DNA of 64,000 bases from Haloprofundus halobius. Its GTDB lineage: Archaea > Halobacteriota > Halobacteria > Halobacteriales > Haloferacaceae. The position numbers and the translations under genes were made by a program. Position 1 is the first letter of the stretch, and each line of letters begins with the position of its first letter. The stretch is taken from the NCBI RefSeq assembly GCF_020097835.1, contig NZ_CP083666.1, forward strand, positions 1,984,001 to 2,048,000. Reading direction: 5' to 3'. Below the pieces are notes generated by a model, which saw only the letters and a list, made by a program, of their open reading frames with translations, had not been told where the DNA came from and ran no database searches. Positions 7,000 to 19,371 of the stretch are shown here, one piece after another.

Positions 7000-8079
7000 T
7001 TACAACAACGAATCGATCTCGTCGTTGCTCCACATGTCGACGAGGTTGGGTTTCTCCTCGTCGGACTCTTGTTGGGCCTGTTTCGCGCGCTCCATGAACT
7101 GCTGGAGGCGCTCGGAGCGTTCGACGCCGCCGAGCAGGATGAGCGCCGCGAGGCGGCCGCTTTCGAGCGGGAAGTCACCGCCGCGGACCTGCAGACTGCC
7201 GGTCTCCTCCTCGACCCAGCTCCGGGCGCGTTCGACGCCTTTCCGCGAGATGGTCTCTGCCTGTCCGGCGACGACGACGAGCGCCGAGTCGGCCTCCGTC
7301 GCCTCGGGGAGACTCGTCCCCGTGAGAAGCGCTCGACGGACGGTGCTCATGATGGTGTTGATGTTGTCCTCGGCCTCCTCGCTGGCTTCGGAACTGGCGT
7401 AGCCGAGCGCCGCGACGCCGCCGGAGCGGAGCGTGTTGATGATTTCGGAGGAGTCGACGACCGATTCGCCGACGCCCTCGGTCGCCTCGCCGGACGCGAG
7501 AAGTAGACCGATGCGCTGGGCTATGGCCTGGTTGATGGCGTCGAACCCCTCCTCCATGCTCTCGCCGGAGGAGCGCCACGCGTCGTTGTCGACGAGAAGC
7601 ACCGAATCGGCTTCACGGGCGACGGTCTTCAGCGATCGCCCCGCGTTCACTTGGTACATCGACCCCTCGTCGCGTCCGGGGAGGATGCCGAGGCCGTAGA
7701 CGGGCACGTCGTAGACGCGCTTCAGTTCCTTCACGAGAACGGGCATCCCGCCGCTACCGGTGCCGCCGCCGAGACCGGCGACGACGAAGATGGCTTCCGC
7801 CTCGGCGGTGATGCGGCCGTCGAGCTCACCCATCACCTCGCGGGCGTCCGACTGCATCACTTCCGCGCCGAGTTCGTTGTCGCCGCCGACGCCGTGACCG
7901 CTGACGCGGTCCTGGCCGACGAGCACCGTGTCGAGCGGGAGGGGTTGGAGGTCTGCTTTCGCGCTGTTGACTGCAAGTGCGCCTCGGACTGCGCCGAAGC
8001 CCATCCGTGAGTCGAACTCAGCCAGCGCCGTGGCGAGTTTCCCGCCAGCCTGGCCTACACCTATCAGGACGGTTTTCAT
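7000..8079 (-). CDS. cetZ: tubulin-like protein CetZ
   Basis: A 359-residue member of the archaeal CetZ branch of the tubulin/FtsZ superfamily. It begins MKTVLIGVGQAGGK (nucleotide-binding loop 1) and carries the tubulin signature GLGGGTGSGG at residues 102-111, with NELGAEVM and GILPGRDEG blocks matching CetZ rather than FtsZ. CetZ proteins are GTPases that assemble filaments; CetZ1 controls rod shape and motility in Haloferax, other paralogues are less understood. The start at 8079 begins the Rossmann fold directly. It is divergent from the pilus-like cluster with 77 bases between starts. The opening is closer to CetZ2-type than CetZ1-type sequences from memory. Confidence 0.93.
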   Translation of the reverse strand: MKTVLIGVGQAGGKLATALAEFDSRMGFGAVRGALAVNSAKADLQPLPLDTVLVGQDRVSGHGVGGDNELGAEVMQSDAREVMGELDGRITAEAEAIFVVAGLGGGTGSGGMPVLVKELKRVYDVPVYGLGILPGRDEGSMYQVNAGRSLKTVAREADSVLLVDNDAWRSSGESMEEGFDAINQAIAQRIGLLLASGEATEGVGESVVDSSEIINTLRSGGVAALGYASSEASEEAEDNINTIMSTVRRALLTGTSLPEATEADSALVVVAGQAETISRKGVERARSWVEEETGSLQVRGGDFPLESGRLAALILLGGVERSERLQQFMERAKQAQQESDEEKPNLVDMWSNDEIDSLL

Positions 8080-8156: not shown

Positions 8157-8627
8157 ATGGAGGAAGAAACCGCACGCGGAGACAGCTATTCCGACCACGA
8201 AACTCGTCTCAGTCGCCTCGAATCGCGTCTCGGCGCCGTCGAACGAACCGCGACGGGGACGGAGACGCCAGTCGCCGACCTCTCCGACGCCGCCGAGCTG
8301 GACGTGCGACTCACCGCCGTCGAAGAGAGCGTCTCGGACCTCGACGACCGCCTCTCCGAGCTCGACGCCGCGGTACAGGCGCTTCGTGGGTACGTCGGCG
8401 GCGTTCGAGCGGTCAACCGCGACGTCAAGCGCCGCGCCGACGCCGCCCTCGCCGCCGTGGAGTCGCTAGAACGTCGGCGCGCGGAGACCGACGTGATCGA
8501 CGAACTCGCTGCAAACGTCGAGAGCACGACCGCGATGCGCGAATCGCCGCCGGACGACGACACCGGAGAAGAGACGAGCGCGGAGTCGAACGAGGGACTC
8601 GCCGCACGGCTCCGAGAGACGTGGTGA
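8157..8627 (+). CDS. DUF7310 family coiled-coil protein
   Basis: A 156-residue acidic protein with heptad-like repeats: ETRLSRLESRLGAVE, ELDVRLTAVEESVSDLDDRL and VQALRGYVGGVRAVNRDVKR. It has no membrane span and a disordered Glu/Ser-rich tail before a terminal LRETW. This is the first gene of the secretion-like cluster; its TGA overlaps the GTG of the next gene (GTGA). The coiled coil suggests a structural or scaffold partner of the ATPase encoded downstream, which is inference. Haloarchaea-specific as far as I know. Confidence 0.8.
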   Translation: MEEETARGDSYSDHETRLSRLESRLGAVERTATGTETPVADLSDAAELDVRLTAVEESVSDLDDRLSELDAAVQALRGYVGGVRAVNRDVKRRADAALAAVESLERRRAETDVIDELAANVESTTAMRESPPDDDTGEETSAESNEGLAARLRETW

Positions 8628-9115
8628 TTCGACTCGTCGTCACCGTCGCGCTCGCGGTCGTGCTCACCGCCGCGTCGCTCCCCGCCGTCGACGCGGCCCG
8701 CGACGACCGGACGGCGACTCACCTCGACGGCGAACTCGTCCGGGTCGTCGACGCCGCGCGGGACCTCCCCGAGACCGAGGACGCGACGAGCGACGAATCG
8801 CTGGCCGCGCGCCGCGTCGTCTCCGTCCGGATTCCCGAGCGGTCGCTGACGAACGCGCACGTCGACTACGTCGAACTCGACGGCAGCGGCGGTTCGACTG
8901 CCCGCCCGTCGCTCAGCTACCGACTCGGCGGCCACGAGGAGGCGAGCTATCGTCTCGCGGAACCCGTGTTCGCGACACCGGGCGGCCCGCTCCGCCTCTC
9001 GGCGTCGGGCACGCACCGACTCCGTCTCTCGTTGCTCGAACGCGGCGGTCGACCGGTGGTGGCGGTCGGGCGTCTCGACCCCCGAACGACGTCCGACGGC
9101 GGCGGCACGGGCTGA
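8624..9115 (+). CDS. DUF7311 family exported protein
   Basis: A 163-residue protein opening with a hydrophobic segment (IRLVVTVALAVVLTAASL) that reads as a signal peptide or anchor, followed by a beta-rich body with SVRIPERSLTNAHVDYVEL and LSYRLGGHEEASYRL. Two GTG codons (8621, 8624) are possible starts; 8624 gives the GTGA overlap with DUF7310. It lies between the coiled-coil gene and the ATPase, the order I associate with DUF7310-DUF7311-PilB-type loci in Halobacteria. Likely a cell-surface accessory part of the same machine. Confidence 0.78.
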   Translation: MIRLVVTVALAVVLTAASLPAVDAARDDRTATHLDGELVRVVDAARDLPETEDATSDESLAARRVVSVRIPERSLTNAHVDYVELDGSGGSTARPSLSYRLGGHEEASYRLAEPVFATPGGPLRLSASGTHRLRLSLLERGGRPVVAVGRLDPRTTSDGGGTG

Positions 9116-9148
9116 AGTTCAAGTAGGGAGAGGCGACCACCCCACCGC

Positions 9149-11083
9149 ATGCGACTGCTCTCGCGGTTCGAAACCACCGACGCACCGTCACACGAGGCCG
9201 AAGAGACGGACTGCCTCTGTGACCCGTCGTTCGTCGAACCGAGCGGCACGGGCGTCGGTCGCCTCGTCGAACTCGTCGTCGACGCCGACGACTGCTCCGG
9301 CGGCGGCGATCTGGTCGCCGACTCAGCCTGTCGAGCGACCGTCGTCGACGCGCTCAGCGGGTGCGACGCAGACGTCGTCCGAACCCGCTCTCGCGGCTAC
9401 GAACGAGCGTACGACGGCGACGCAGTGGCGCTGTTGCTGGCCGCCGGACGGTTCGTCGAGCGGGCGGCGTTCCACGATACGGCCGTCGCAGACCGGGCGC
9501 GGCGGGACCCTCTCGGCGCGGCGCGAGAGGCGACGGGACGCGCCGGACCCGTCGCCCGAATCGCCGCCGAGACCGGCCTCGCGGAGGGCGCGGCCCGCGT
9601 GTCGACGTACGAGGACGCGCTCCGACCGTTCGTCGGGCCGACGCTCGTTCGCTCGCGGGTAGCGCTGCGACCGCCCCCGGACGCGACGCTCGCGGACCGC
9701 TGGTCGCTCGACACCGGCGCGACGGTCCGGCGGTACGAACGCGACGGCGGTCGGGATTGGTATCAGCTCGACCCAGCGTTCACCGAACTCGACCGGGCGG
9801 CCACTGCGACGCTCCGGGAGGCGCGAAGCGCGCTGGCCGACGGCGTCGGCGGCGCGGGCGAGCGCGCACCGGGGCGGGCGGTCCGCGCCGTCGCCGACGG
9901 TAACGGCGACGACGGCGACAGCGGTGGCGGGACGCCGGTCGAGCAACTCGCGGCGCTCCTGACGAAGCACACGCGCGGCCACGGCGTCCTCGACGACTTG
10001 TTTTCGGACGCTCGGGTCTCGGACGTGTTCGTGACCGCACCGGTCGAGTCGAACCCAGTTCGCGTCGTCGTCGACGGCGACCGTCTCGACACCAACGTTC
10101 GACTGACGCCGTCGGGGGCGGCGGCGCTGGCGTCGCGTTTTCGACGCGCGAGCGGTCGGCCGTTCTCGAAGGCGGACCCGACGCTCGACGCGGTGGTCGA
10201 CGCCGAGAGCGGGCGAATCCGCGTCGCGGCCGTCTCGGACCCGGCGAGCGACGGCCTCGCGTTCGCGTTCCGCCGCCACGACGACGCCCCGCTGACGCTC
10301 CCGGCGCTGGTCGAAAACGACACGCTCTCCCCCGACGCCGCCGCGCTGCTCTCGTTGGCGGTCGAACGCGGCACCGCCGGACTCGTCGCCGGAACCCGAG
10401 GGGCCGGGAAGACGACGCTGCTGGGCGCGTTGCTGTGGGAACTGCCGGTCGAGACGCGGACCGTCGTCGTCGAGGACACGCCCGAACTGCCGGTCGAGGC
10501 GCTCCAACGCAACGACCGCGAGGTTCAGACGCTCCACGTCGGTCTCGGTGAGAACGCGACGCTCACGCCGGTCGAGGGCGTCAGAACCGCACTCAGACTC
10601 GGCGAGGGGGCGCTCGTCGTCGGCGAGGTGCGCGGCGAGGAGGCCGCCGCACTATACGAGGCGATGCGCGTCGGCGCGAACGGCAGCGCCGTCCTCGGGA
10701 CCGTTCACGGCGACGGCGGCGCGGCCGTCCGCGAACGGGTCGTCTCTGACCTCGGCGTTCCGGAGTCGTCGTTCGCCGCGACCGACCTCGTGGTGACGCT
10801 CTCGCCGAGCGGCGGGCGGCACGTTGCCCGAATCGAGGAGGTTCGCGTGAGTGATGGACGTCTCCGCTTCGAGACGCTGTTCGAGTACGCCGACGGCGCG
10901 CTGAGACCGACCGGTCTCGTCGACAGGGGGAACAGCGCGCTCGTCGCCTCCCTCGCAGGGTCGGGCGAGCGATACGCCGACGTTCGGGACGCGCTCGGGA
11001 AGCGACGTCAGTTGCTCGAAACGCTCGCTGGGAACGGTCGAACGCGTCCGACCGACGTCGCGACGGCGTACGTGGGTCGATGA
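9149..11083 (+). CDS. type II/IV secretion (PilB/TadA-type) ATPase
   Basis: A 644-residue GspE/PilB/VirB11-family ATPase. The first ~200 residues are a lineage-specific domain with a CLCDPSF motif and further Cys (DDCSG, ACRATV). An N2-like domain precedes the motor domain (about residue 270 on) with VSDVFVTAPVESNPV, Walker A GTRGAGKTTLLG at about 412-423, Asp box VVEDTPELPV and Walker B LVVGEVRGEEA followed by VGANGSAVLGTVHGD. It powers pilus or archaellum-like assembly at the membrane. Its stop overlaps the next start by four bases (ATGA), tying it to the platform protein. Confidence 0.92.
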   Translation: MRLLSRFETTDAPSHEAEETDCLCDPSFVEPSGTGVGRLVELVVDADDCSGGGDLVADSACRATVVDALSGCDADVVRTRSRGYERAYDGDAVALLLAAGRFVERAAFHDTAVADRARRDPLGAAREATGRAGPVARIAAETGLAEGAARVSTYEDALRPFVGPTLVRSRVALRPPPDATLADRWSLDTGATVRRYERDGGRDWYQLDPAFTELDRAATATLREARSALADGVGGAGERAPGRAVRAVADGNGDDGDSGGGTPVEQLAALLTKHTRGHGVLDDLFSDARVSDVFVTAPVESNPVRVVVDGDRLDTNVRLTPSGAAALASRFRRASGRPFSKADPTLDAVVDAESGRIRVAAVSDPASDGLAFAFRRHDDAPLTLPALVENDTLSPDAAALLSLAVERGTAGLVAGTRGAGKTTLLGALLWELPVETRTVVVEDTPELPVEALQRNDREVQTLHVGLGENATLTPVEGVRTALRLGEGALVVGEVRGEEAAALYEAMRVGANGSAVLGTVHGDGGAAVRERVVSDLGVPESSFAATDLVVTLSPSGGRHVARIEEVRVSDGRLRFETLFEYADGALRPTGLVDRGNSALVASLAGSGERYADVRDALGKRRQLLETLAGNGRTRPTDVATAYVGR

Positions 11084-12906
11084 GCGCCGGTTCGTCGGTG
11101 GGTGTCGAAGACGGAGCGTCCGCGACGACCGCTACCGTCCTTCGAGCGCTTTCCCGTCTCGTCCCCCTCGAAATCGACGCCAGCGACTCGCTCGCCGACG
11201 CCCTCTCGTATCTCGACTCGCCGGTCTCGGCCGAGACGGTCGTCCGCGGCGGTTACGGGGTCGCCGTCGTCGTCTCGCTGTGTACGCTTCCGGTCGGCAT
11301 ACTCGCCCTCCCTGCCATCGCCGCCGTCCCGTTCGCGCTGGGGGTGGGACTCGCCGCAGCCCACGTCTCCCACCGAGTGCCGGTGCTACTCGCTCGGACG
11401 CGACGGGCCGGGGCGCTGGGTGACGCCGCCGGTGTGGTCAACCGGGCCGTCCTCCGCCTTCGACTCGAACCGACACCCGAGCGCGCGGCCGCCTTCGCCG
11501 CGCGGACGGGACAGGGACTGTTGGCGTCGAGCCTCGCGGAGCACGTCCGCCGTGCCCGCGGGACACCACACTCCGGGATGGCGGCGTTCGGCGACGAGTG
11601 GACGGACCGACTGCCGGCGCTCGGACGGGCGACGACGCTGCTTCTCGCCAGCGCGGCGGCGACGCCCGGCGACCGCGAACGCGGGCTGGAGCGCGCGCTC
11701 GACGCGGTGCTCGACGGCACGCGCGACCGACTGGCACGCTTTGCCGACAACGTGCGCGCGCCGCTGTCGGGGGTGTACGCCTTCGGCGTCCTGCTGCCGC
11801 TGGCGCTGGTTGGGGTCCTCCCGGCGGCCGCGAGCGCGGGCGTCCCGGTCGGGACGCTCCCGCTGGTAGTCGTCTACGACGTGCTCCTCCTGCTCGTACT
11901 GCTCTCGGCGGGCGTGTGGCTCGTCAGCCGTCGACCAGTCGCGTTCCCGCCGCCGCGCGTCGGCCTCGAACATCCCGACGTGTCGGGGTCGCGCCGTCGC
12001 CGATATCTCGCCGTTGCGGCCGCGGCGCTCGCCGTCGCGGCCGCAGGCGCGGCCGTCGTCGACCCGTGGACCGCGCCGCTCGTCGGCGTCGGCGTCGCGG
12101 TCGGTGGGGCGCTCGTCGTCCGATACCGACCGGTTCGACGGGTTCACGCCGACGTGCGGCGGGTCGAAGCCGGACTCGACGACGCGCTGTATCTGGTCGG
12201 CCGCCACGTCGTCGAAGGCGTCGCCGTCGAACGCGCGCTGGACCGCGTCGCCGACGAACTCGACGGCGCGACCGGTGAGATGTTGGCCGACGCCGTGACG
12301 ACACAGCGGGCGCTCCGCGTCGACGTTCGCGACGCGTTTCTCGGCGACGACGGGGCGCTCTCGGCGGTTCCGAGTCCGCGGGCGCGAAGCGCGGCCGAAC
12401 TGCTGGCGCTCGCGGCGACGGAAGGCGCACCCGCGGGCGCGGCGCTCGTCGCGACGGCCGAGCAACTGAGTCGCCTCCGACGGCTCGAACGCGAGGCGCG
12501 GCGAGAGCTGGCGGAGCTGACCGAGACGCTTCAGAACACCGGCGCGCTGTTCGGGCCGCTCGTCGGCGGCGCGACGGTCGCGCTCGTCGAGCGGTTGGAC
12601 GGCGCATCGGCGTCCGCGACGCCGGAAGCGGCGGCGTTCGGGACGGATGCAGCGGACGCTACGGGCGCGGCAGCCGGAACCGCGTCCGCCGCGGGGTCGG
12701 CGCTCGGTGGCGCGCCGGGGACGGCGACGTTCGGCCTCGTCGTCGGCGTCTACGTCCTCCTCTCGGCGGTCCTTCTGACCGCGCTGGCGACGGCCCTCGA
12801 ACACGGACTCGACCGTGTGCTGCTCGGCTACCGAATCGGTCTCGCCCTGCTCGCGGCGACGACGACGTATCTCACGGCGTTCGTCGCCGCCGGGTTGCTC
12901 GTGTGA
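11080..12906 (+). CDS. type II secretion system F / TadC-PilC-type platform protein
   Basis: A 608-residue polytopic protein, about twice a minimal F domain, as in archaeal PilC/FlaJ/TadC proteins. Hydrophobic segments cluster at roughly residues 45-90, 225-285, 305-350 and 545-608, with two cytoplasmic helical regions between them that resemble duplicated T2SSF domains (for example DALYLVGRHVVEGVAVERAL). It is the membrane partner of the ATPase whose stop it overlaps. A low-complexity Ala/Gly/Thr insert before the last spans (about 505-545) is unusual. Paralogues of such pairs occur several times in haloarchaeal genomes. Confidence 0.9.
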   Translation: MSAGSSVGVEDGASATTATVLRALSRLVPLEIDASDSLADALSYLDSPVSAETVVRGGYGVAVVVSLCTLPVGILALPAIAAVPFALGVGLAAAHVSHRVPVLLARTRRAGALGDAAGVVNRAVLRLRLEPTPERAAAFAARTGQGLLASSLAEHVRRARGTPHSGMAAFGDEWTDRLPALGRATTLLLASAAATPGDRERGLERALDAVLDGTRDRLARFADNVRAPLSGVYAFGVLLPLALVGVLPAAASAGVPVGTLPLVVVYDVLLLLVLLSAGVWLVSRRPVAFPPPRVGLEHPDVSGSRRRRYLAVAAAALAVAAAGAAVVDPWTAPLVGVGVAVGGALVVRYRPVRRVHADVRRVEAGLDDALYLVGRHVVEGVAVERALDRVADELDGATGEMLADAVTTQRALRVDVRDAFLGDDGALSAVPSPRARSAAELLALAATEGAPAGAALVATAEQLSRLRRLEREARRELAELTETLQNTGALFGPLVGGATVALVERLDGASASATPEAAAFGTDAADATGAAAGTASAAGSALGGAPGTATFGLVVGVYVLLSAVLLTALATALEHGLDRVLLGYRIGLALLAATTTYLTAFVAAGLLV

Positions 12907-12940
12907 GGGTTTAAAACGGAGGAGGAGGCCAACCCGCCTC

Positions 12941-13411
12941 ATGTTCGACGCACCCGTAGAGACGTGGTACACGTGGCTGGGACTCGCCGTCGCGAGCGTC
13001 GCGATGCTCGGCGCCGCGACGACGTTTCCGGCGACGGCCACACCGGACGCGGCGGGCGTCGCCGACACCGTCGACGGCGTCGCCGCCAGCGAGTATCCGG
13101 CCACGGCAGAACACCCGCTCGCGGCCGAGGCGATTCGAGTCGGCCCGCATCGGCTGAGCCTCCGAAACGACGCCGGGACGACCCACGCCTCGTTCGTTTT
13201 CGGACCGGTGACGCCCGTTGCACCGGGGTCGCGGCTCGAAACCGTCCTCCACGGCGTCCCGCCGGGGGAGGCGTTCGACAGTCGACGGGCGTTCACGCAG
13301 GCGCTCATCGAGGCCCGAACCGAGGAGTCGACGTGGCAGACGGTCGATCGGACGCTCGTCGTTCGGCGCGCCGAATGGGGGGAGAGCGATGCCACGCTCG
13401 TCGGCGCGTAG
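12941..13411 (+). CDS. DUF7283 family membrane-anchored protein
   Basis: A 156-residue protein with one N-terminal membrane span (about residues 10-30, YTWLGLAVASVAMLGAATTF) and an extracytoplasmic body with HPLAAEAIRVGPHRLSLRND and a FVFGPVTPV strand. The ATG at 12941 comes 34 bases after the platform gene's stop; the frame stays open upstream, but there it overlaps the platform gene. A TTTAAAA at 12910 could be a minor promoter. It is the first of four consecutive anchored proteins and overlaps the start of DUF7285. A pseudopilin- or TadE/F-like role is inferred from topology and context. Confidence 0.8.
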   Translation: MFDAPVETWYTWLGLAVASVAMLGAATTFPATATPDAAGVADTVDGVAASEYPATAEHPLAAEAIRVGPHRLSLRNDAGTTHASFVFGPVTPVAPGSRLETVLHGVPPGEAFDSRRAFTQALIEARTEESTWQTVDRTLVVRRAEWGESDATLVGA

Positions 13412-13913
13412 GCCACGTCGGTCTCGTGGGGCGGATGAGGCGGGTGAGGCGGGTGAGGTGGGTGAGGCGCGTCGGTCGGGTGGAGCGAGTTGGGTGCGCC
13501 GGGCACGCCTCGCGGGCCGGGAGAGTCGGGCCCAGACGGAGCCGACGACGGCACTCGTCGCCGTCTTCGCGGTGGTCGTCGCGCTCTCGCTCTACGCCGT
13601 CACCTTCGAAGAGGCTGTGCCCACCGGAGAGCGAGCGATCTCCGAGACGACGCTCGAACGCGCGTCGGCCGAGATAACCGACGGCGGGGTCGCCGACCCG
13701 ACGGCGCTCGGACGTGCCCGTGACGCCGCCCCGGCGGGTTATCGGCTCAACCTCTCGCTCGCTGTCGGGGAGCGGCGGTGGACCGTCGGGTCGGTCGACC
13801 CGGCGAACGTCGACGGTGAGGGGGCTGCGGACAGGGCGAGTCGACGACTGAGTGTCCGCCTCGCACCGGGTGTCGTCCGGCCCGGCCACCTGCGGGTGGC
13901 GGTGTGGCGATGA
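13389..13913 (+). CDS. DUF7285 family pseudopilin-like protein
   Basis: A 174-residue protein. After a variable N-terminus encoded partly by a 9-base tandem repeat it has ESRAQTEPTTALVAVFAVVV, which combines a basic residue, a small residue and then Gln-Thr-Glu-Pro before a hydrophobic segment. That is the layout of archaeal class III (PibD-cleaved) signal peptides, so it may be a pseudopilin or TadE-like subunit. The secreted part follows. It overlaps DUF7283 by 23 bases and ends in an ATGA overlap with DUF7284. The exact start is uncertain; ATG 13389 is the first in frame after the upstream gene's bulk. Confidence 0.75.
   Translation: MPRSSARRPRRSRGADEAGEAGEVGEARRSGGASWVRRARLAGRESRAQTEPTTALVAVFAVVVALSLYAVTFEEAVPTGERAISETTLERASAEITDGGVADPTALGRARDAAPAGYRLNLSLAVGERRWTVGSVDPANVDGEGAADRASRRLSVRLAPGVVRPGHLRVAVWR
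13431..13475 (+). repeat. 9-base tandem repeat inside DUF7285
   Basis: Four near-identical copies of GCGGGTGAG (13431-13439 with one change, 13440-13448, 13449-13457, 13458-13466 with one change) followed by a diverged fifth. In frame they encode a Glu-Ala-Gly repeat just before the conserved membrane segment. Copy number changes would keep the frame. Confidence 0.8.
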
Positions 13914-14776
13914 CGAGCAGCGTCCTCGACGCCGCGCTCTGCTTGCTCCTCGTCAGCGCCGCCGCCGTGACGCTGGCTGACGTGCCGACGGGAGCCGACG
14001 AACCCGCCGCCGACGCCTCACGGACGGCGGAGATGCTCTCGACGACCACCGCCGAGGTCGACTACACGCTCGCGAGCGGGGCGCGCCGCGCCGACGACGC
14101 CGAGCGGTTCCCCGTGACCGACGGGCCGGCGTTCGACCGCCGCGCCCACGGGTCGCTCGCGGAACTGCTGGCCGAGTCGACGACGGCGACCCCGAGAGTC
14201 GACGGAGAACGCGTGACGCACACCGGTGACGACTTCCGACGACAGGTTCGCGCGGCAGTCGCCCGCGCGTTGCCGCCGCGGACGCACGTCGTCGCGCGGT
14301 GGCGGCCGCACGTCGGGTCGAGCGTCGGGGCGTCGACCAGCGTCGGTGAGGAACCGCCGGCGTCGGCCGACGTTCACACCGCAGTCCTCTCGGTGCCGAC
14401 TGCCAGCGACTCGGACGCCGACGCGGCCGCGCGGAGCGCGATGGACGACGGGTTCGCGGGTGTCGCGACGATTGTCAGCGACCGACTCGTGAACGCGTGG
14501 TTCCCGCCGAAGCGAACCCGCCTGGCGCTCGGCGGCGACTACCCGACGTCGGCGCTCGTCGGCCACCGATACGACAGGGCGGCGGCGCTCTCCGGGGCGA
14601 CGTTGCCGTCTGCGCCGAACCGTTCGACGGTGTCGACGGCGAACGCGCGACTCCTCGCAGCGCTCGAACCGCGGGTCGAATCTGACCTGAGACGCGTATT
14701 CGACTCGCCGGCCGAGGCGGCGGTGGCGCTCTCGGGTGGAGAGGTCCGCATCACGGTTCGGCGGTGGTCGGCGTGA
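13910..14776 (+). CDS. DUF7284 family membrane-anchored protein
   Basis: A 288-residue protein beginning MTSSVLDAALCLLLVSAAAV, a single N-terminal hydrophobic segment without a long charged region, then a large extracytoplasmic domain with a THVVARWRPH block, a VPTASDSDADAAARSAMDDG block and an SLVNAWFPPKRTRLAL-like region. The ATG at 13910 gives an ATGA overlap with DUF7285; a GTG at 13904 is also in frame. It ends in a GTGA overlap with DUF7286. Probably an exported part of the same machine; no enzyme motif is visible. Confidence 0.8.
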   Translation: MTSSVLDAALCLLLVSAAAVTLADVPTGADEPAADASRTAEMLSTTTAEVDYTLASGARRADDAERFPVTDGPAFDRRAHGSLAELLAESTTATPRVDGERVTHTGDDFRRQVRAAVARALPPRTHVVARWRPHVGSSVGASTSVGEEPPASADVHTAVLSVPTASDSDADAAARSAMDDGFAGVATIVSDRLVNAWFPPKRTRLALGGDYPTSALVGHRYDRAAALSGATLPSAPNRSTVSTANARLLAALEPRVESDLRRVFDSPAEAAVALSGGEVRITVRRWSA

Positions 14777-17175
14777 GTCGCTCCGACTTTCTCGACGGCA
14801 AGCGCGGGCGCGTCCCGTTCGCGCTCGTCGGTGTCCTGCTTCTCGTGACGAGTTCGGCCTTCGCCGCGACGCTGGACGGTCCCGCCCCCGTCCGCGACGA
14901 CGACGTGGGGACGACGATGGAGCGCGTCGAGGCCGAGTCGGTCACCGCGCTCCGCGTCGCCGCCGACGAGGCCGCTGTCGACGCCGCGGCGAATCCGGTC
15001 ACTACGCGGGCCGAGACATCCGCCGGAAGGGCGCTCAACGAGTCGGCGCCGTTCGTCGACTCGCTCCGGATTCGCGTCTACCTCGCGGCGCGGGAGCGGT
15101 TCGAGCGGACGACGGACCGTCGCAACGGCGTCGCGACGACGGTGTCGGTGCCACCGGTACGGAACGTTTCGGACCTCCGGCAAGCGAAGCGATCCGTCAC
15201 CGTCGAGCGCGTCGACGAGGGGACGGCGATGCGCGTCACGCTCGAAAACGTCACGCGGACGGCGACCCGCGGCGGTCGGGTCGTCGCGACGCGGACGGAC
15301 TCGCTGACCGTGACCGTGGCGAACCCGGTGCTTCTCGCACACGACCGAACCGAGTCGTTCGAGGCGCGCCTCGAACGACCGGCGCTCACAGGTCCGGGAC
15401 TGGACCGACAACTGACCGCGCGACTGTACGCCGTCGCCTGGGCCCGCGGCTACGCGCAGAACCGCGGTGCGCCCATCGAGAACGTCGTCTCGAACCGCCA
15501 CGTCGGACTGTCGACGAACACCGGCGTCGTCGCGGTGCAGCGGGCGGCGTTCGGTCGGAGCGACCCGGCGGCTCGTCGCGGCGTCGAACGGGCGACGGCA
15601 CGGGTCGGCGCGGCCGACCTGCTGGAGTCGACGCCGCCGGACGAGGAGGCAGTCGCGGCAGAGGTTCTCGCTCCGCCGAACGACCCGACCCCTCCCGAGA
15701 CGGAGGTCCCCGCGCCGTCGACTCCGTCGAGAGAAGAACGGTCACTCACCGTCGGTGTCAACCGAACCGCCGATGTCGCGTTCGTCTCGCTGCTCGACGG
15801 CGAGCCAGCGGCTGTCGAAGGGAGCAAGCGGTCGCACCGGCCCCAGTCGCTGGCGGAGACGCTCGACGCGGCGTACCGCGTCGACGCTCACCTCTCGACG
15901 CGCGTCGAGCAGACGAGAGAGGGAACGCCGGAACGACCCTCGTCGCCCGGTCGCAACTGGAGTTCCGTCGCCGACGAAACGGAGACCCACGTCTCGGTGT
16001 CGTCGGGCGACGCGACAGAAGCCGAGAGGAACGGCGTGCGTGTCGAGACGGCGACGCGCCGCGTCGTCGAACGCCACGTCCGAACGACGACGTGGCGACG
16101 GGGCAACGAGACGAAAACGACCCGAGCGACGTGGACTGACCGGTACCGCGTCGGTATCTCGATGGACGTCGAACGGCGCTCACTCGACGGCGTTCCGTCT
16201 CGGCCGGTCGACCCGAAATTCGAACGCGGCGGCGCGCTCGACGGTCCGAACCTCGGTGACGTTCCCGAGCGCGCGTGGACGGCGATGGTCGACCGGCGCG
16301 GCGGTGTCGATGCCGTCGCTCGGCGAGCCGTCGGGGATGCCGCGCCGAGAACCGAAGCGGACACGAGGACGAAAACGAGAACGACGACGTTCACCGGCGA
16401 ACGACCGGACAGCCTCGGGTCGTGGGCGTACGACGACCTCTCGGCGTTCAGAGCGGACGTTCGGGACGTCGACGTCGAGGTCGATGCGACGCGCGTCGCG
16501 ACCGGCGAGGCGAACCCGCCATCGGAACTGGCCGTCGAACTCCGTTCGCACCGGTCCGAACTACTCGACGCCCCCGAGACGTACGACGGGGCGGCCGACC
16601 GGGCGCGCGTCGCGGCGCGGGCGGCGTACCTCGACCGCGTCCTCGCTCACCTCGACGTCCGGGCCGACCGGACCGCGGAGCGAAACGACCGGGTGGGCGA
16701 GACGCTGTCCGACCACGGGTCGACGGCGTCGTCGCCGTCCGAACTCGGCCGCCTCGTCGAAACCGCCGAGGGGACGGTCCGACCGGAGTCGCGGACGTTC
16801 GGCGACGACGCGCCGGCGAGCGACGTAGCACTCCGTCCCGATGGCTCGCCCGCCTACCTCACGCTCGGCACCGTCGAGCGGGCGCACGCGCCACCGATTC
16901 CGGCCAACGCGAGCTATCGACCGCTGGCCGCCCGGAACACGAACCTCGTGACGGCCCCGTACGACGACGTGGCAGACACCGTCGTCGGCCGCGCGCTCGA
17001 GGGGTCGGAGCAGGTGAATCTCCGGACCGGCGGACAGGTGCTCGTCGTGGCGAACCGGACCGCCGCCGCGACCGGGAACGAGACGCTGGACGAGCGGCGA
17101 CAGCGGCTCGGGACCGAGGTCGGAGACGGCGTCGACGTGACGAAGGAAGCGGCGCGGACGACGCTCGAACGGTAG
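14773..17175 (+). CDS. DUF7286 family large anchored protein, 5' part before an internal TAG
   Basis: A reading frame of 800 codons starting with GTG at 14773 (GTGA overlap with DUF7284). The N-terminus has GKRGRVPFALVGVLLLVTSS, a basic-Gly pair before a hydrophobic stretch that resembles a class III signal peptide or membrane anchor. The rest is a long Arg/Thr/Glu-rich extracytoplasmic region with many short repeats of charged sequence. The frame ends at TAG 17173-17175, but sequence in the same frame continues with family-like character to 17964. A full-length protein would be about 1063 residues, so this gene is interrupted or relies on readthrough. Confidence 0.75.
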   Translation: MSRSDFLDGKRGRVPFALVGVLLLVTSSAFAATLDGPAPVRDDDVGTTMERVEAESVTALRVAADEAAVDAAANPVTTRAETSAGRALNESAPFVDSLRIRVYLAARERFERTTDRRNGVATTVSVPPVRNVSDLRQAKRSVTVERVDEGTAMRVTLENVTRTATRGGRVVATRTDSLTVTVANPVLLAHDRTESFEARLERPALTGPGLDRQLTARLYAVAWARGYAQNRGAPIENVVSNRHVGLSTNTGVVAVQRAAFGRSDPAARRGVERATARVGAADLLESTPPDEEAVAAEVLAPPNDPTPPETEVPAPSTPSREERSLTVGVNRTADVAFVSLLDGEPAAVEGSKRSHRPQSLAETLDAAYRVDAHLSTRVEQTREGTPERPSSPGRNWSSVADETETHVSVSSGDATEAERNGVRVETATRRVVERHVRTTTWRRGNETKTTRATWTDRYRVGISMDVERRSLDGVPSRPVDPKFERGGALDGPNLGDVPERAWTAMVDRRGGVDAVARRAVGDAAPRTEADTRTKTRTTTFTGERPDSLGSWAYDDLSAFRADVRDVDVEVDATRVATGEANPPSELAVELRSHRSELLDAPETYDGAADRARVAARAAYLDRVLAHLDVRADRTAERNDRVGETLSDHGSTASSPSELGRLVETAEGTVRPESRTFGDDAPASDVALRPDGSPAYLTLGTVERAHAPPIPANASYRPLAARNTNLVTAPYDDVADTVVGRALEGSEQVNLRTGGQVLVVANRTAAATGNETLDERRQRLGTEVGDGVDVTKEAARTTLER

Positions 17176-17964
17176 ACCGAGTTGTCGGCGACGCAACGCC
17201 GCACCGCCGTCGACCGCGGGTTCGCCAACTGGGAGGGCCACGGGCGGCGAGCGCTCGCCGCCGGCAACGGTTCGGCGGCGACGGCCGTCGCCGAGCAGGT
17301 CGGCGAGCGGCGCGGTTGGCACGACAGGCGGACCGACCGTCTCGCGGTCCGACTCCGGACGTCGATGCTCGACGCGGCCCGAAGCGACGCCGCCCAGGTC
17401 GACCGACGACCGACCGAGCGCACGTCCGAGACGACGCAGTATCTCGCCCGCTACGCCAAGAAGAAACTCGCCGAGGGGCTGGAGAGCGGCACCGAGCGAG
17501 CGACGGACCGCGCACGAGAGAAAGTACGCGACCGTCTCGAAGGGACGAAGTGGGCCGACAAGGCGCTCGTCGGCGTCCCCTCGGGGCTCCCCGTCGCCCC
17601 CGTGCCGGGGTACTGGTACGCGACGGTCAACGTCTGGACCGTCGAGGCCCGGGGGGAGTACGCGCAGTTCGTCGTCACCGCCCGACGCGGCACGGCGGGA
17701 TCGAGCGACCTGCGGTACGTCCGCGACGGTGACCCGGTGACGCTCGACGTCGACGGCGACGGCGAGGCCGAGCGACTGGGTCGGAGCGAGCGTATCTCCT
17801 TCGAGGCGCAGACCACCGTCGTCGTGGCTGTCCCCCCGACGCCGCCGGGCGTCGGCGACGTCGACGGCGATGCCGACGAACGGTCGGGTGGGTGGCCTGC
17901 TCCGGGGTGTGAGCCGGAACCCCGGTGTCGACCGGACGCCGCTCCCGACCCGCGTTCCGAGTGA
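17176..17964 (+). pseudogene. DUF7286 3' part downstream of the internal stop
   Basis: In the same reading frame as the gene upstream, the sequence stays open for about 262 codons after TAG 17173-17175. It encodes QYLARYAKKKLAEGLESG, then GVPSGLPVAPVPGYWYATVN, NVWTVEARGEYAQFVVTA and two acidic DVDGDG/DVDGDADE calcium-loop-like motifs, which I recall as the normal C-terminus of DUF7286 proteins. The only nearby start is a TTG at 17182 with no clear ribosome binding site. A C-to-T change turning CAG into TAG would explain the break. Sequencing error is the main alternative. Confidence 0.7.
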
Positions 17965-17998: not shown

Positions 17999-18430
17999 AT
18001 GCTCTACGACGCCGCAGAGAGTCCGGGGTCGCTGACGCCGAACGAGTTGCGCGCCGCCTACGACTCGCAGTTGGCCGCCGTCGTCGACGCCGAGGGCGTC
18101 GAGACGGTCGCCGCCGAGTCGGGCGTCGACCGCGACCGCGTCGTCGCGCTCGCCGAGGGCGAGTCCCCCGACCTCACGCTCGAAGAGGCCGCCGGTATCC
18201 TCGCCGTCGGCGACGGCTACCCCGACCGGGAGGCCATCGTACTCGAACTGCGCGACCACCTCCTGCTGGGGATGACGACGGGCGTCCTCGACGTGGATAC
18301 CATCGCCTCGAACATCGACGCCGACCTCACCGGCCAGGAGGTCCAGCAGGCGCTCGAAGGGCGGACCGCCTTCCCGCTCGACGACCTCGCGGCGGTCCAC
18401 GCGTTCATCGCCGAGCGGAACGACCGCTGA
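17999..18430 (+). CDS. DUF5791 family protein
   Basis: A 143-residue acidic helical protein starting MLYDAAESPGSLTPNELR. A helix-turn-helix-like pattern appears in VAAESGVDRDRVVALAEG with TLEEAAGILAVGD, followed by the conserved block DHLLLGMTTGVLDVDTIAS and DLTGQEVQQALEG that I know from haloarchaeal DUF5791. TTTTGG at about 17971 lies near -28 and suggests a leaderless transcript. Its TGA overlaps the ATG of the next gene by one base (TGATG), indicating an operon with the SDR. Confidence 0.85.
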   Translation: MLYDAAESPGSLTPNELRAAYDSQLAAVVDAEGVETVAAESGVDRDRVVALAEGESPDLTLEEAAGILAVGDGYPDREAIVLELRDHLLLGMTTGVLDVDTIASNIDADLTGQEVQQALEGRTAFPLDDLAAVHAFIAERNDR

Positions 18431-19371
18431 TGAGTCCCCGCAGCGACACCGACGGCGACGACGCCGCCGAGCCGAAACGCGTCGTCGTCCTCGGCTGTGG
18501 TTACGTCGGCACCGAACTCGGCCGCCAGTTGACGGCGGCGGGTCACGACGTGGTCGGCGTCCGCCGCTCCGAGGAGGGACTGGAAGCCATGGAAGCGGCC
18601 GGATTCGACGCCGTGTGCGCCGACGTAACCGACGCGGCGTCGCTCGAACCGGTGCCGGACGCCGACTGGCTGGTGTTCGCCGCGAGCTCCGGCGGCCGCG
18701 ACGCCGACGCCGCCCGCGAGGTGTTCGTCGACGGGCAGCGGACGGCGCTCGCGGCGTTCGGCGAGCGCGATGACGGCCCCGAGCGGTACGTCTACACGTC
18801 GAGTACCGGCGTCTACGGCGACCACGGCGGCGACTGGGTCGACGAGGAGACCGAGATACGGCCGACGACGGAGAAGACGCGGGTTCTCGCGGCGGCCGAG
18901 CGCGTCGCTCGCGAGGTGCCGCGCGAGTACGGCTTCGACGGCACCGTCGCCCGCTTTGCGGGGCTGTACGGCCCGAAGCGCTATCGGCTGGAGCGCTACC
19001 TCGAAGGGCCGGTGACCGAGGGCTATCTCAACATGGTCCACCGCGACGACGCCGCTGGAGCCATCGCGTACCTGCTGGAGCGCGACCACGGACACGACGG
19101 GGTGGTGCTGGTCGTCGACGACGAACCCGCCGAGAAGTGGGCGTTCGCCGACTGGCTCGCCGACGAGTGTGGCGTCGAGCGCCCGTCGAAGCGGACGAAG
19201 GCGGAGCGACTCGACGCGGGCGACCTCTTGGAGGCGGCACGACGACGGATTCTCACGAGCAAGCGCTGCTCGAACGCGCTGCTCCGCGAACTCGGCTACG
19301 AGTTCCGGTACCCCGACTACCGCGCAGGGTACGCCACCGCAATCGAGCAGTATCGGAGAAGAGAGCGCTGA
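18430..19371 (+). CDS. atypical SDR / NAD(P)-dependent epimerase-like protein
   Basis: A 313-residue Rossmann protein. A ~15-residue acidic leader precedes VVVLGCGYVGTELGRQL with the GxGxxG dinucleotide-binding loop. VYTSSTGVYGDHGGDWVDEE is the Ser/Tyr region of extended SDRs, but the usual YxxxK is not obvious: the matching position reads TTEKTR. VARFAGLYGP and NMVHRDDAAGAI follow the YeeZ-like atypical SDR pattern. The substrate is unknown. It is translationally coupled to DUF5791. Confidence 0.88.
   Translation: MSPRSDTDGDDAAEPKRVVVLGCGYVGTELGRQLTAAGHDVVGVRRSEEGLEAMEAAGFDAVCADVTDAASLEPVPDADWLVFAASSGGRDADAAREVFVDGQRTALAAFGERDDGPERYVYTSSTGVYGDHGGDWVDEETEIRPTTEKTRVLAAAERVAREVPREYGFDGTVARFAGLYGPKRYRLERYLEGPVTEGYLNMVHRDDAAGAIAYLLERDHGHDGVVLVVDDEPAEKWAFADWLADECGVERPSKRTKAERLDAGDLLEAARRRILTSKRCSNALLRELGYEFRYPDYRAGYATAIEQYRRRER

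Follow-up and report, generated by a model that had tools for sequence, protein, structure and literature searches.

What is assembled by a PilB/TadA-type secretion ATPase and its membrane platform when the other six genes of their operon belong to unnamed Pfam families is the question raised by positions 8157-17964 of the window (the whole 64,000-nucleotide stretch of Haloprofundus halobius DNA analyzed here). By sequence and Pfam, this region is an eight-gene operon beside a divergent CetZ tubulin gene, in the order DUF7310, DUF7311, PilB-type ATPase, PilC-type platform, DUF7283, DUF7285, DUF7284, and DUF7286; Pfam confirmed every family that the first-pass annotation had named, and in the order given. 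The window is haloarchaeal, and the nearest named relative met was Haloprofundus marisrubri (L056), whose DUF7284 is 73% identical. The features are as follows.

7000..8079, - strand: divergent CetZ tubulin-like GTPase (Pfam CetZ_C 1.6e-67, Tubulin 2.7e-27)
8157..8627, + strand: DUF7310 (Pfam 9.2e-28), operon gene 1 in 69 of 80 loci
8624..9115, + strand: DUF7311, small, with an N-terminal hydrophobic segment (Pfam 1.6e-40)
9149..11083, + strand: PilB/TadA-type secretion ATPase (PilB2-like) with a Cys-rich N-terminal domain (Pfam T2SSE 7.5e-18)
11080..12906, + strand: PilC/TadC-type membrane platform, a conserved partner (Pfam T2SSF 1.3e-5, barely over the cut-off)
12941..13411, + strand: DUF7283, N-terminal anchor, no class III leader (Pfam 4.4e-55)
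13389..13913, + strand: DUF7285, small, pilin-like, class III signal RA/QTEP (Pfam 2.2e-32; start from sequence and alignment)
13910..14776, + strand: DUF7284, anchored alpha/beta protein, no leader here (Pfam 1.9e-85; alignment)
14773..17175, + strand: DUF7286, giant anchored pilin-like protein, ending at residue 800 (TAG) (Pfam 3.4e-262, profile 2-768)
17173..17175, + strand: in-frame TAG splitting DUF7286 (sequence; genome search)
17176..17964, + strand: DUF7286 C-terminal remnant with no signal of its own (Pfam 7.1e-83, profile 774-1000)
17999..18430, + strand: small conserved arCOG04674-like gene (by neighbourhood) after the operon, in 62 of the 69 loci of intact order
18430..19371, + strand: NAD-dependent epimerase-like flanking gene, the same flank in most loci (flank described in PMC9856176)

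The epimerase-like gene probably lies outside the machine; together with the arCOG04674-like gene and a DHH gene, also downstream, it identifies the locus. The first-pass annotation, which had missed these three genes as well as the CetZ gene and the TAG in DUF7286, had described the operon as coupled by ATGA/GTGA overlaps. This held for four junctions (GTGA at 8624-8627 between DUF7310 and DUF7311 and at 14773-14776 between DUF7284 and DUF7286; ATGA at 11080-11083 between PilB and PilC and at 13910-13913 between DUF7285 and DUF7284), and DUF7283 and DUF7285 overlap by 23 nt; since DUF7311 and PilB, like PilC and DUF7283, are separated by gaps of about 34 nt, not all junctions overlap. A search against Rfam gave no matches, and there is no tRNA within the window.

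The ATPase and platform accompanying DUF7283-7286 are indeed of the type IV pilus/Tad-like kind, the best NCBIfam model for the ATPase being a TadA-family one that scores below its cut-off. Alignment revealed, in the cytoplasmic N-terminal portion of the ATPase (window positions 9149-9400), conserved cysteines (C22, C24, C49, and C61), three of them kept in 94-97% of rows, non-haloarchaeal rows included. Such conserved cysteines are unusual among haloarchaeal proteins and suggest a metal site. In a tree built without the reference sequences of Makarova 2016, haloarchaeal and non-haloarchaeal ATPase copies from genomes with the DUF module formed one clade (100/100, 20 rows), apart from other PilB paralogs. 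DUF7310, a "coiled-coil region" in Pfam, is predicted to be cytoplasmic and matches the description of arCOG07564, a likeness by description rather than by mapping of the arCOG number, and the CetZ neighbour is CetZ2 by neighbourhood, not by tree. These families, cysteines, ATPase clade, and gene order match the testable features of the type IV pilus-like system catalogued for haloarchaea as "subclade 4F" (pilB2/C2, linked to cetZ2); the operon is therefore a copy of a known system.

Was the linkage of these genes, expected from the window alone, conserved across Halobacteria? The operon genes were mapped with one profile each in 80 named haloarchaeal loci and 20 further loci; for the DUF7286 scan of the collection a 13-sequence alignment was used, a 28-sequence alignment being too divergent. 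The eight genes occurred in identical order in 69 of the 80 named loci, 60 of these 69 with CetZ divergent upstream, and several exceptions reflected contig ends or rearrangement. Among 145 genomes, DUF7286 was present in 110, DUF7283 and DUF7311 in 106 each, DUF7284 in 105, and the ATPase (E below 1e-50) in 104, and all 104 ATPase-bearing genomes encoded DUF7286. The DUF families are thus not widespread without the ATPase in these genomes: only six had DUF7286 without it, four of them holding deletion remnants (G056, G012, G067, and G124), one having its locus broken by contig ends (G120), and another encoding DUF7285-7284-7286 alone (G045, locus L040). In about seven genomes (G033, G046, G069, G115, G116, G119, and G123), coordinates placed the ATPase and DUF7286 far apart or on separate contigs, yet both were present. 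The linkage is far above chance expectation. The DUF7283-7286 set is doubled in some genomes (L048 and L049 in G077; L047 in G058), and in G077 the ATPase and platform adjoin one of the two sets only. Six unnamed Pfam families are tied by this analysis to one catalogued, experimentally near-untouched archaeal pilus class that about 70% of the haloarchaea sampled carry, and the proteins to test are named.

Genomes without an intact operon (24 examined for remnants) bear on how it came to be absent. All but one kept the arCOG04674-like gene (23 of 24), and the distance from this gene to CetZ is about 100-250 bp in 8 of them. In the four genomes with deletion remnants, a 3' piece of DUF7286 persists between CetZ and the arCOG04674-like gene, in some accompanied by pieces of DUF7310 or DUF7311 (loci L177, L184, L185, and L186, also L053, L054, and L055). 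Its occurrence at the same site in all four implies that the operon was lost there by deletion, and because the remnants in G056 and G124 differ in breakpoints and in family, at least two separate deletions took place; for G067 and G012, which belong to one genus, a single deletion may suffice. This favours repeated loss over a simple recent gain. Two further loci, L178 and L187, have about 1 kb separating CetZ from the arCOG04674-like gene; no remnant is recognisable there, and the stretch may hold unrelated genes or be an older scar. Both the deletion remnants described above and the stop in the window's DUF7286 are new.

The two halves of that DUF7286 fit one continuous profile of 1000 positions, and none of the other full-length copies listed for the 145 haloarchaeal genomes is interrupted by a stop; a degraded partial copy from the same genus (G056) has another internal stop. 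We infer that the operon copy in the window is probably crippled, with the system disabled or its tip truncated. Re-initiation at TTG 17182 was ruled out as a functional remedy, the resulting fragment having no signal. The stop fits the trend toward loss, yet could be an assembly error. That the TAG is such an error or is tolerated, leaving the system intact here, is conceivable though doubtful: it is a single stop in an otherwise open frame and all other operon genes are intact, against which stand a genome 99.7% complete in 5 contigs and the degraded locus L053 of the same genus, which makes decay plausible.

Both motifs read earlier as class III signal peptides, ESRAQTEP in DUF7285 and KRGRVPFALV in DUF7286, are present as quoted, and the reading stands for the first of them. 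A FlaFind-type motif was found in 84 of 95 haloarchaeal copies of DUF7285 (RAQT in the window copy). DUF7286 begins with a conserved R[GA]xxPFA and a hydrophobic stretch, and 93 of 97 copies have R[GA] ahead of the helix, but most carry R or H immediately after the presumed cut, where the FlaFind-type pattern allows neither; only 2 of 97 copies pass it, and the protein is therefore not classed as a proven class III substrate. The motif was found in 1 of 94 copies of DUF7283, which on this test lacks a class III signal, and in 42 of 77 copies of DUF7284, the remainder of which, the window copy included, start straight at the helix. Counts for DUF7311 were unusable because, in small GC-rich genes, the start codon is hard to place with certainty. 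In the window copy of DUF7285, about five copies of a 9-bp tandem repeat (GTGAGGCGG) at 13426-13482 stretch the leader to about 50 residues; leaders in its relatives are far shorter.

Structural models did not reveal the unrelated cytoplasmic enzymes that would have counted against the earlier reading: the two modelled families are membrane-anchored alpha/beta proteins. The AlphaFold2 model of DUF7284 (mean pLDDT 89.4) has a helix at residues 3-23 followed by an alpha/beta body, and that of the intact L056 DUF7286 (mean pLDDT 82.5) a helix at 23-42, of low confidence, followed by several alpha/beta segments. Neither model, searched whole, had a PDB match at E < 0.001, and no known pilin or TadE fold was recovered; from searches with entire models we make no claim of a new fold for either protein. 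Weak rows in the fold searches (ribosomal S3, Z ~6; enoyl-CoA hydratase and SecB, E 0.06-0.1) were set aside as unrelated noise.

Relatives outside Halobacteria have a different arrangement. Control searches found DUF7284 and DUF7286 in Methanosarcina acetivorans, and DUF7284 also occurs in further families of the phylum. In 11 non-haloarchaeal loci, DUF7285 adjoined DUF7284 without exception, DUF7286 was adjacent or within a few kilobases in 7, and two extra small anchored proteins lay directly upstream in most. Profile comparison identified the first as a DUF7311 homologue (hhalign probability 97, E 9e-11, 131 columns); the second resembles DUF7283 weakly (probability 15, E 0.0018; cross-comparisons E ~0.3). 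The ATPase was not beside the subunits, and in each of seven such genomes a single strong ATPase relative was identified (38-49% identity versus 25-32% for other paralogs). Also new is this retention of DUF7285 next to DUF7284, in many cases accompanied by DUF7286 and a homologue of DUF7311, at a distance from the ATPase. Many of these non-haloarchaeal subunits start with R[GA]- or a similar motif right before the hydrophobic helix, the pilin pattern, and the pilin-type leaders of several are missing from haloarchaeal DUF7311, DUF7283, and often DUF7284. It would appear that DUF7311, DUF7284, and perhaps DUF7283 descend from pilin-like proteins whose leader they no longer have, which suggests that some pilin-derived subunits have shed it. 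Outside Halobacteria, DUF7286 is followed by a gene (L140:14379-14984, L146:13530-14060) whose product of ~180-200 residues has an N-terminus of the Sec type and is possibly a further component. One non-haloarchaeal genome has a CetZ-like gene (L144:15539-16666, E 4e-40) within ~5 kb of DUF7284.

We consider it likely, on balance, that the locus encodes a haloarchaeal subclade 4F system assembling a short pilus-like filament that exposes DUF7286, with a crippled copy in this genome. DUF7311, DUF7283, DUF7285, DUF7284, and DUF7286 would each be anchored through a single N-terminal helix and expose the rest of the protein outside the membrane, and a prepilin peptidase would trim those bearing leaders (DUF7285, perhaps DUF7286). 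The PilB ATPase on its PilC platform would then drive subunits into a short filament whose large exposed subunit, DUF7286, would probably occupy the tip or a place close to it. DUF7310 may act inside the cell as an adaptor or regulator, CetZ may position the machine, and a major pilin, if used, would be supplied from elsewhere in the genome; the role is probably attachment or cell contact. Besides the conserved gene order, co-occurrence, ATPase clade, pilin-type leaders, and published match given in this text, the anchor helix and external-type body predicted for DUF7284 and DUF7286 count for the filament. Against it are the absence of leaders from DUF7283 and from the window's DUF7284, the basic residue after the presumed DUF7286 cut, two models that fit no known pilin fold, and a non-haloarchaeal ATPase that is not beside the subunits. 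A structure unlike an ordinary pilus is worth naming as a rather improbable variant: short, built from leaderless pilin-derived subunits that dispense with the prepilin peptidase, positioned by a tubulin, and topped by a pilin-like protein ~1000 residues long whose fold is unrecognised.

Two other readings, about equally unlikely, keep the machinery and change what it delivers. With several minor pilin-like subunits, no major pilin gene in the operon, and an ATPase and platform of the type II secretion type, DUF7285 and its partners could form a short pseudopilus expelling a soluble substrate, DUF7286 serving as an exit or guiding component; no conserved secreted substrate is linked to the haloarchaeal loci, however, and the related archaeal systems characterised to date form filaments (PMC4858521). 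DUF7286 might instead be an S-layer-like coat or envelope protein, exported or regulated with the pilus and not built into it. Its size (~1000 residues), a post-cut position that breaks the pilin pattern, and the naming of one component of the system as S-layer-like in Makarova 2016 (PMC4858521) speak for such a coat; its conserved R[GA]xxPFA and hydrophobic start and strict co-occurrence with the ATPase speak against it. Most improbable by far is the undescribed system first proposed. Our literature search found no paper using these DUF numbers, and there is no match to a solved fold, but the testable signatures of 4F and of the cetZ2-pilB2/C2 regulon are present, and the match to published descriptions (PMC4858521, PMC9856176) largely refutes the idea. 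The observation behind that proposal was thus partly confirmed and its interpretation partly supported.

The subclade 4F filament that we prefer can be set beside several known systems. In open papers we found no functional study of it and no filament, expression, or mutant data. Control searches recovered DUF7283, DUF7284, DUF7286, and DUF7311 from Haloferax volcanii; HVO_0739-0744, considered as the operon of that species, was dropped, as two papers place polX and a gene under cell-division control there. Bacterial Tad (Flp) pili share with the operon an ATPase nearest the TadA model and small subunits with one N-terminal helix; they differ in that the ATPase here scores below the family cut-off and no TadE/TadG match was found in sequence or fold. 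The pil-2 operon of Halobacterium salinarum encodes PilB2/PilC2 and predicted prepilins, is co-transcribed, has an ATPase in arCOG01818, and is itself damaged, by an internal stop in pilC2 (R1) and an insertion in pilB2 (NRC-1) (PMC4292770). It may or may not be of the same class; other papers hint at subclade 4C.

Subclade 4F was described as having a Cys-rich ATPase N-terminus, a hybrid pilin set, an S-layer-like protein, a coiled-coil protein special to Halobacteria, and an FtsZ-family neighbour (Makarova, Koonin & Albers 2016, PMC4858521). The window operon shares the clade of Halobacteria and phylum relatives, the Cys-rich N-terminus, the coiled-coil gene, a large anchored protein, the FtsZ-family neighbour, and pilins without an obvious major pilin among them; it differs in its interrupted DUF7286, and the likeness of its DUFs to the paper's arCOGs is one of described features. 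That no ordinary pilin is present, taken earlier as a sign of a different structure, is true of the operon and expected of the subclade, whose major pilin (arCOG02981) generally comes from another locus (PMC4858521); this genome has three Pilin_N genes outside the operon. The pilB2/C2 regulon, which adjoins cetZ2 and is accompanied by arCOG04674 and an epimerase (Brown & Duggin 2023, PMC9856176), shares with our locus the CetZ neighbour, the arCOG04674-type gene, the epimerase, the phosphoesterase flank, and the gene organisation. That study favours recent acquisition, whereas our remnants demonstrate deletion in at least some of the lineages that lack the operon; more than one deletion of the locus argues against a purely recent-acquisition history, and the proposed link between CetZ2 and the pilus is made directly testable.
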